From: Myxosarcina sp. GA_180221_E-2-1-MAG-40_15
Lineage (GTDB): Bacteria > Cyanobacteriota > Cyanobacteriia > Cyanobacteriales > Xenococcaceae
Assembly: GCA_020692205.1 (NCBI GenBank)
Contig: JAIMKV010000024.1
Span: forward strand, 1 to 58,374
Length of the DNA: 58,374 nucleotides
Reading direction: 5' to 3'
In this document: piece after piece, positions 34,701-36,824 of the stretch
Position numbering within the stretch: the stretch's first letter is position 1
Layout: every line of letters starts with the position of its first letter
Position numbers and translations under genes: made by a program
The notes under the pieces: generated by a model
Databases searched by the model: none
What the model was told of the DNA's origin: nothing
Seen by the model: only the letters and a program-made list of their open reading frames with translations

Positions 34701-34991
34701 TTAAGCAGCCGTTGCCTTTTGTAAAATTCTAGCTATGCGGGATTTTTTCCTCGCCCCATTGTTTTTGTGGAGAACTTTACGCTTAACTGCTTTATCAATT
34801 TTGCTGTATGCTGCCGACATACTTTGCTTTACAGCTTCCATATTTTCAGGGGTGGGTTCGGCTGTATAAGTTTCTACTGCACCAAAATACTTTTTGGTCA
34901 AAGTTCTAAGTGCAGACTTATATGCTTTATTTCGCAGTCGATTGCGTTCTGCTGTTCTGATACGTTTGATTGCCGATTTTGAGTTAGCCAC
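34701..34991 (-). CDS. rpsT: 30S ribosomal protein S20
   Basis: Primary 16S rRNA-binding protein of the small subunit, 96 residues. The sequence is strongly basic and helical, with the hallmark N terminus [20 protein letters not shown] and a C-terminal [11 protein letters not shown] block. It is the first gene of the cluster that continues into tatD and rpoB. Confidence 0.97.
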
Positions 34992-35213
34992 AGTTTTTTA
35001 AACAAGAAGTATTTGCTTTGTAAGTAATTTTGGAAATATATATAGAATTGGATTTTACAGTCTAGCAACTGTTGCTAATCTGTGTCAAGGAAATTAAAAT
35101 ATGTAGTTTGGCAAAGCTGAACAAACAGGTTGACCTAGCCAAGATAGGCGTACCAAGACAAATAGATTCACGTTAAGCTAGAAATGTAGTGATTTTCTTA
35201 CTGTAAAGATTTA

Positions 35214-35219
35214 TATAAT
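35214..35219 (+). promoter_or_regulatory. Consensus -10 box in front of the candidate RNA
   Basis: A perfect TATAAT. A start 7-9 bases downstream would fall at 35226-35228, exactly at the first base of the 13-bp closing helix. No convincing -35 is present. Confidence 0.45.
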
Positions 35220-35227
35220 AAATTGAG

Positions 35228-35479
35228 AGTCAGAGATTAACCCTTGGTATCGGTGTGACCCCGACAAATAGTACTAAGTTTGAGGAATGTCTATCAATAG
35301 TAAATAGACTCAGTCTCGTAGGCGAAATATCAAGGTAGATATAAATTCATAAGATGTTTACCGAAAACCGCATGAGATAGTTACCAACCATGCAAGCACA
35401 AAATCGTATTGCTGTGGTTACCGACCTCGATCCAACTTAGTAAGCAAGCTTTAGCTGTATCTAGTTTTGATCTCTGACT
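35228..35479 (+). ncRNA. Candidate structured RNA (about 250 nt) upstream of hisD
   Basis: AGTCAGAGATTAA (35228-35240) pairs with TTGATCTCTGACT (35467-35479): 13 bp with one G-T wobble. Inside, TACTAAGTT (35272-35280) pairs perfectly with AACTTAGTA (35434-35442). TGAGG (35281-35285) then pairs with CCTCG (35425-35429) beyond a 4-base bulge. Local hairpins include GTCTAT/ATAGAC (35289-35309), TCGG/CCGA (35250-35264) and GCATG/CATGC. The nested long-range helices indicate selection for an RNA fold or, alternatively, a palindromic mobile element. It does not match tmRNA, RNase P RNA, SRP RNA or a group I intron by core motifs. It could be a free RNA or a long hisD leader. Confidence 0.5.
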
Positions 35480-35531
35480 GATAGTAAAATCTCGCTTTTG
35501 TGTAATTGCTCAAATGGATATGGGGATCTCG

Positions 35532-36824
35532 ATGCTGCGAATAATTGATCGGCAAACTGAGGCACAAACAGAACTAAAGCGTATCGGCGATCGCAACAGT
35601 GGTGACGACATTCAGCCTAAAGAAAATGTCGTTAGAGAAATTGTTGCCAACGTCAAAAAAAATGGCGATCGCGCTTTACTAGAATACACTGAAAAGTTTG
35701 ATCGACAGCTTTACACTGCTGATCAATTACGAGTCAGAGGTTCAGAATTAGATGCTGCTTATCAGCAGGTATCTAAAGATTTACTCCGTGCTATCCAGGT
35801 AGCCTGTCAAAAAATAGAGGCTTTTCATCGCCAGCGAGTCCCCAAATCTTGGGTGCAGTTTGAAGAAGATGATGTGGTACTAGGAAAACGCTACACTCCT
35901 GTAGATCGAGCAGGGCTTTATGTTCCTGGGGGACGAGCCTCTTATCCCAGCACGGTACTAATGAATGCCATTCCCGCCAAAGTAGCCAAAGTGCCTCGAA
36001 TTGCCATGGTTACGCCACCTGGCCAAGATGGCAAAATCAATCCTGCGGTACTAGTCGCAGCCCAAGAAGCTGGAGTTGAGGAAATTTATCGAGTCGGGGG
36101 AGCGCAAGCGATCAGTGCTTTGGCTTACGGAACCGAAACCATACCCAAGGTAGATGTAATTACTGGACCTGGCAATATCTACGTTACTTTGGCTAAAAAA
36201 CTGGTATATGGCACGGTTGGAATTGACTCTTTAGCCGGCCCGTCGGAAGTATTAATTATTGCTGACGAACAGGCTAATCCAGTTTATGTTGCTGCTGATT
36301 TATTAGCTCAGGCAGAACACGATCCAATGGCGGCTGCCATCTTATTGACTACTAGTAACAGTCTAGCTCAACAGGTGCAGCAAGAGGTTAACCGACAGCT
36401 AGCCAATCATCCACGCAAAATGCTTACTGAAAAGGCGATCGCTCATTACGGTCTAATTGTAATAGTCGATTCTTTAGCAGAAGCAGCCGAACTATCTAAT
36501 TTGTTTGCACCAGAACATTTGGAATTGGAGATAGCAGAACCCTGGAACTTAATCGAGCAAATTCGTCATGCAGGAGCAATTTTTCTGGGTAATTCTACCC
36601 CAGAAGCAACTGGAGATTATTTAGCAGGGCCAAATCATACCTTACCTACTTCAGGAGCGGCTCGTTATGCTTCGGCACTAGGAGTAGAGACATTTATGAA
36701 GCATTCGAGTTTAATCCAGTATTCTTCAACAGCCCTAAAAAAAATGTCTAGTACCATTCAAATTTTGGCTCAGGCAGAAGGATTACCATCTCATGGTGAT
36801 TCGGTAAAATTTAGAACTGAATAA
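35532..36824 (+). CDS. hisD: Histidinol dehydrogenase
   Basis: Catalyses the last two steps of histidine synthesis (L-histidinol to L-histidine, NAD+-dependent, zinc enzyme). About 430 residues. Recognisable blocks are [34 protein letters not shown] and FAPEHLELE. An in-frame ATG exists at 35514, but the family N terminus MLRI and a GGGGAT just upstream favour 35532. Upstream lies the candidate structured RNA, ending 52 bases before this start. Confidence 0.96.

Follow-up and report, generated by a model that had tools for sequence, protein, structure and literature searches.

The window, meaning the whole stretch of 58,374 nucleotides analysed here from a Myxosarcina genome, carries hisD (histidinol dehydrogenase) on the plus strand at 35532-36824, with an ATG start codon at 35532 which is common to the 26 loci compared (MLRII...). 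The name hisD was taken from a preliminary description of this DNA and from general knowledge, not from a profile search. To the left of hisD lie, from left to right and on the minus strand, genes which we take to be rpoC1, rpoB, a TatD-like gene and rpsT, and a tRNA gene follows hisD within the same window. A putative hisD promoter block, TACTGTAAAGATTTATATAAT, was located on the plus strand at 35199-35219, ending in a TATAAT box at 35214-35219. Both ACTGTAAA and TATAAT are kept at the promoter position in 12 of 13 same-genus genomes (a set which includes the window genome), locus L023 being the exception. In the promoter scan this site was not among the sigma-70 matches having a -35 hexamer, and the transcription start referred to below was deduced from TATAAT.

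Upstream of the promoter block, the motif TTCACGTTAAGCTA at 35167-35180 was found to be exact in 8 of the 13 same-genus genomes, and variants of it recur, as judged by eye, upstream of hisD in other Xenococcaceae genera, making it a candidate operator or second hisD promoter. The TACTGTAAA...TATAAT block (35199-35219) downstream of this motif could not be recognized by eye in the other genera compared and is perhaps a promoter gained at the level of the genus.

Between the promoter block and the short hisD leader (35480-35531, plus strand) lies an insert of 255 nt (35225-35479, plus strand). The leader is also present in relatives which have no insert, and 50 of its 52 bases are identical in G012, the closest relative of the window genome (G000) and the other carrier of the insert, where the insert measures 245 nt. 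In the window five bases separate TATAAT from the start of the insert, which has AAATT on its left and GATAGTAA, belonging to the old leader, on its right, and its boundaries fit the ancestral site AAATTGATAGT as reconstructed from relatives. A terminal inverted repeat, with a 5' arm at 35228-35240 (AGTCAGAGATTAA) and a 3' arm at 35467-35479 (TTGATCTCTGACT), both given for the plus strand, lies at most three bases from these boundaries. The insert is flanked by a direct repeat, TGA at 35224-35226 and 35479-35481 in the window and TGA/TAA in G012, which at only 3 bp can be due to chance. A different, G+C-rich stretch was seen by eye in locus L032 (genome G014) between a CACGTTAAGCTA-like motif and hisD, at most 400 bases upstream of the gene, and on this ground the hisD leader may be prone to repeated insertion.

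The distribution of the insert is narrow. When 60 genomes were searched at the DNA level with 35180-35500, eight gave matches, which were full-length only in the window genome and G012 and extended over the promoter only in the other six. Genes for hisD were found in 26 of the 27 family genomes, at 28 places, and 26 upstream regions were compared after leaving out two second hisD-like genes (L039 and L040). In this comparison 11 of the 13 same-genus genomes were found to lack the insert, and inspection by eye showed none at the 13 loci from other genera. Ten of the same-genus genomes without the insert have TATAAT 50-63 nt from the ATG, compared with 312 nt in the window genome and 302 nt in G012, while the eleventh (L023) is without TATAAT and has its upstream motif approximately 115 nt from the ATG, as against approximately 351 nt in the window. 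Among named genomes, which supplied 80 loci (L041-L120) outside this comparison, the best hisD match reached 85% identity, with none in the same-genus range of 88-96%. The two carriers are mutual closest relatives, differing at 44 of 201 fourfold sites of hisD, compared with 47-61% to 13 other genomes, and a single insertion in their common ancestor therefore explains the pattern. As the inverted ends lie within three bases of the boundaries, TGA flanks the insert and relatives lack it, transposition is indicated as its likely origin. The explanation which we consider probable, with some reserve, is thus a lineage-specific, MITE-like insertion transcribed as the 5' leader of hisD and mostly drifting, which resembles the decayed relic of a single-copy MITE or insertion sequence.

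The preliminary description had proposed a structured RNA of about 250 nt at this location, held together by three nested helices, and all three were found in the window. The outer helix is formed by the two arms of the terminal inverted repeat (13 pairs, one of them G-T), a 9-bp helix by 35272-35280 (TACTAAGTT) with 35434-35442 (AACTTAGTA), and a 5-bp helix by 35281-35285 (TGAGG) with 35425-35429 (CCTCG), one of the five pairs being a wobble. The minimum-energy fold of 35228-35479 (252 nt; -69.2 kcal/mol) contains them all, the sole departure being at 35280, whose partner is 35430 and not 35434, and the window fold has in addition a hairpin at 35386-35419 (plus strand) which was absent from the preliminary description. 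The fold scored z -4.44 with none of 200 dinucleotide shuffles as good, a score favoured by the fact that the ends of the segment were picked by the helix itself; the reverse strand scored z -2.77 (1/200). For comparison, plus-strand windows of 252 nt were scored with 40 shuffles each (168 of the 581 planned, none of them less than 200 bases from the insert), the lowest z obtained being -3.45. This makes the fold unusual, subject to the same caveat regarding its helix-picked ends.

The outer helix on its own is not rare, as arithmetic assuming uniform base composition predicts, in every 58 kb, approximately eight perfect inverted repeats of 10 bp whose arms are 150-300 nt apart. The 22-nt end arms of the insert are 77% complementary in the window genome. 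The insert of G012, folded by itself, is modestly better than its shuffles (z -1.91, 10/200 as good).

The inserts of the two carriers differ at 59 of 234 aligned bases (175 matching, with 26 gap columns) in one alignment and at 71 of 237 sites in a second. At fourfold sites the same genomes differ at 44/201 positions in hisD, 26/97 in tatD and 11/43 in rpsT, so that a divergence of 25-30% in the insert stands against 22-27% at silent codon sites; the insert as a whole evolves at or slightly above the silent-site rate. Identity is considerably higher outside it, at 91% in the spacer, 96% in the leader and 98% in the first 60 bases of hisD. The differences are distributed unevenly along the insert, the worst 80 columns holding 40 of them (permutation P 0.035), and the best-conserved block, TAAGCAAGCTTTAGCTGTATCTAG at 35441-35464 (plus strand), has 23 of 24 bases identical in G012.

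When the window fold was mapped on G012, 35 of its 77 pairs were unchanged, 12 were changed but still pairing (one on both sides), 20 were broken and 10 gapped. The reverse mapping, of the G012 fold on the window, left 42 of 78 pairs unchanged and 14 changed but pairing (five on both sides), with 20 broken and two gapped. Of the 14 pairs of the window fold which belong to the 9-bp and 5-bp helices, whose 5' arms span 35272-35285 and whose partners at 35425-35442 are mostly deleted in G012, nine are gapped, one is broken and four are kept. The first nine of the 13 outer pairs are kept, one through a compensatory change from G-C to A-T, and the last four comprise one kept, two broken and one gapped. 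The hairpin at 35386-35419 retains 10 of 10 pairs with three one-sided compatible changes. The preliminary description had regarded its candidate as untenable if relatives showed no compensatory changes in the three helices; on this point the result is mixed, since the outer helix provides one such pair and the two inner helices, which are mostly lost, provide none.

It is in these surviving pairs that the case for a domesticated insert resides, that is, a cis-acting leader whose outer helix and 35386-35419 hairpin tune hisD at the level of translation or mRNA stability while the remainder drifts. An RNAalifold consensus of the two whole inserts scored z -3.58 (1/500 column shuffles as good; these shuffles are not dinucleotide-preserving and two sequences only are compared), and 5 of its 47 predicted pairs have changes in both partners. 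When the G012 fold is placed on the window, 56 of 78 pairs are kept, and the insert is near full length in both species. However, the consensus fold without the ends is ordinary (z -0.72, 112/500 as good; reverse strand 0.21, 159/300). In a neutral simulation at the observed rate, only that hairpin among the 12 helices of the window fold fell below P 0.05 (P 0.015, uncorrected), and the full outer helix, with 10 of 12 ungapped pairs kept, gave P 0.15. The first nine outer pairs gave P 0.021, uncorrected and for a subset chosen after seeing where pairing ends in G012. The domesticated leader is further weakened by having two sequences only and no terminator-like site, and by the 16-codon frame (ATG to TAG) at 35390-35440 inside the insert being stopped at its second codon in G012. 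We regard domestication as rather unlikely.

Copies of the insert elsewhere would have pointed to a typical multi-copy MITE, the outcome by which the preliminary description expected its RNA candidate to fall. A DNA search with the insert returned one real place in the window genome, with 13 others at E 1.99 or worse, and one place in G012 at E up to 1; the objection from multiple copies is thus not borne out by DNA search in either carrier. A sequence profile built from both inserts gave strong scores across the 27 family genomes for the two carriers only, followed by G004 (E 1.2e-4 per genome), G017 (3.7e-4), G009 (0.0035) and G012 contig C96 (0.004). The last of these is one of three further weak matches in G012 (E 0.004, 0.065 and 0.36), and the window genome gave one (E 0.70). 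Four matches in other genomes were aligned, with frames listed for three of them: those in G004 and G017 overlap reading frames over most of their length, while that in G009, mostly outside listed frames, and the fourth, in G008 (L141), were taken as chance. No further convincing relative was found by pattern search or DNA search in 388 genomes of the order, where pattern matches in G049 and G157 appeared coding-like by eye and a match in G332 (E 6.3e-4, one of 388 genomes from each of which two candidates were scored) falls within a frame of 556 aa. The plasmids and phages searched gave no match to the insert, and its best-conserved block had no exact match in viral contigs. The end sequence was counted 133 times in the window genome (97 for the reversed control), 154 times in G012 (121), 133 times in G004 (108) and 120 times in G006 (126); in all but G006 it is modestly commoner than the control, although G004 does not carry the insert. 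Paired ends at the spacing of the insert are present in the two carriers and G011, or 3 of 27 genomes, and those of the reversed control in 4 of 27.

The single copy by DNA search, the 3-bp repeat and paired ends no commoner than reversed controls count against mobility. The insert might be non-mobile DNA, produced perhaps by replication error or recombination, in which the inverted ends and the fold are coincidental. Such an origin would sit well with the frequency of 10-bp inverted repeats expected by chance at such spacing, with the lack of convincing relatives or copies in the searched sequences and with the mild excess of stability in G012. When aligned locally with its own flanks, the insert scored no better than shuffles did; this led to a duplication of the promoter or leader being rejected and is in keeping with non-mobile DNA. 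Against it, the window fold clearly beats its shuffles, and no more than three bases separate the inverted repeat from the boundaries. A non-mobile origin appears unlikely to us.

No known RNA family was recognized. In agreement with the preliminary description, which had seen no core motifs of several known RNAs, comparison with 4227 Rfam families at the gathering score gave only tRNA in the whole window and no family beyond chance in the insert, and a permissive search of 34950-35620 gave a single match at chance level (E 4.4). The preliminary description had left 6S RNA open, a family which likewise has a rod-like closing helix; the insert has no match to RF00013, the 6S RNA of this genome being at 23189-23372 of contig C92, and the same search found 6S RNA in 58 of 60 genomes, 57 of them above the cut-off. 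A retron ncRNA was rejected, as RVT_1 matches in the window genome are on contigs C5, C10 and C131 with none on C14, the contig of the window. A coding origin was also rejected, as the stop-to-stop frames which overlap this region, hisD excepted, measure 20-51 aa in the window genome and 23-59 aa in its relative G012, and no frame inside the insert was evidently common to both by eye. Literature searches, judged from titles and abstract openings, gave nothing evidently concerned with this hisD leader.

No terminator-like site was detected on either strand of 34980-35640, and the insert is therefore most simply regarded as hisD 5' leader, with a transcript predicted to run into hisD. A discrete small RNA of approximately 250 nt which starts at the hisD promoter, is terminated or cut at the 3' arm and acts in trans would suit a closing helix which begins near the probable transcript start and stops before the old leader, but it is highly improbable given that lack of a terminator-like site, the absence of the insert from 11 of 13 same-genus genomes, the lack of an Rfam match beyond chance and the neutral-like divergence. 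What remains of the original proposal is an undescribed folded stretch upstream of hisD, which is real and is not 6S RNA; its designation as a structured RNA gene is unsupported because the stretch is missing from those 11 genomes, diverges at about the silent-site rate and has mostly lost its inner helices.

On the reading preferred here, that of a MITE-like insertion, approximately 250 bp with inverted ends of approximately 10 bp would have entered the common ancestor of the two carriers at, or a few bases from, the transcription start of the hisD promoter. The insert would since have been transcribed within the hisD 5' leader, with its inverted ends pairing so as to close it off as a branched rod, and with the original short leader and the start codon still following. 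The predicted openness of the start-codon region is similar to that in relatives, with mean unpaired values of 0.45 and 0.46 in the carriers and 0.38-0.57 in ten relatives, which fits a self-closing insert that leaves hisD translation alone. The interior would meanwhile have drifted at an approximately neutral rate. The near-complete length of the insert in the two species, the nine surviving outer pairs and the surviving hairpin hint at some constraint and count against this reading. It is doubtful, though conceivable, that the insertion is in the process of becoming a regulatory RNA, with selection already acting on the outer helix and on the 35386-35419 hairpin and the rest drifting, which would make it a clade-specific structured leader of hisD.

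The locus offers a before-and-after case, in which related species share a promoter and leader but differ in whether these enclose a folded 250-nt insert, and thereby a natural test of tolerance versus recruitment of structured insertions in 5' leaders. It also illustrates that a lineage-specific insertion can give a striking fold in a single sequence. With regard to known systems, the insert resembles 6S RNA in its rod-like closing helix and differs in having no RF00013 match. His attenuators and T-box riboswitches are likewise folded leaders upstream of histidine-biosynthesis genes, as described in part in PMC9413887; unlike them, the insert has no Rfam match beyond chance and no terminator-like site, and occurs in two species only. 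It was kept as MITE-like and not filed as a MITE because it is without a second copy by DNA search, in either genome, or a partner element, and its direct repeat is just 3 bp. Prokaryotic MITEs are characterized, in the relevant part of PMC10969869, as intergenic elements of less than 500 bp with terminal inverted repeats of 4-30 bp and a transcript predicted to fold stably, whose direct repeats wane over time. At 255 bp, intergenic and predicted to fold, with inverted ends of which the first nine pairs are perfect in both species, the insert is comparable with the elements outlined there (PMC10969869).
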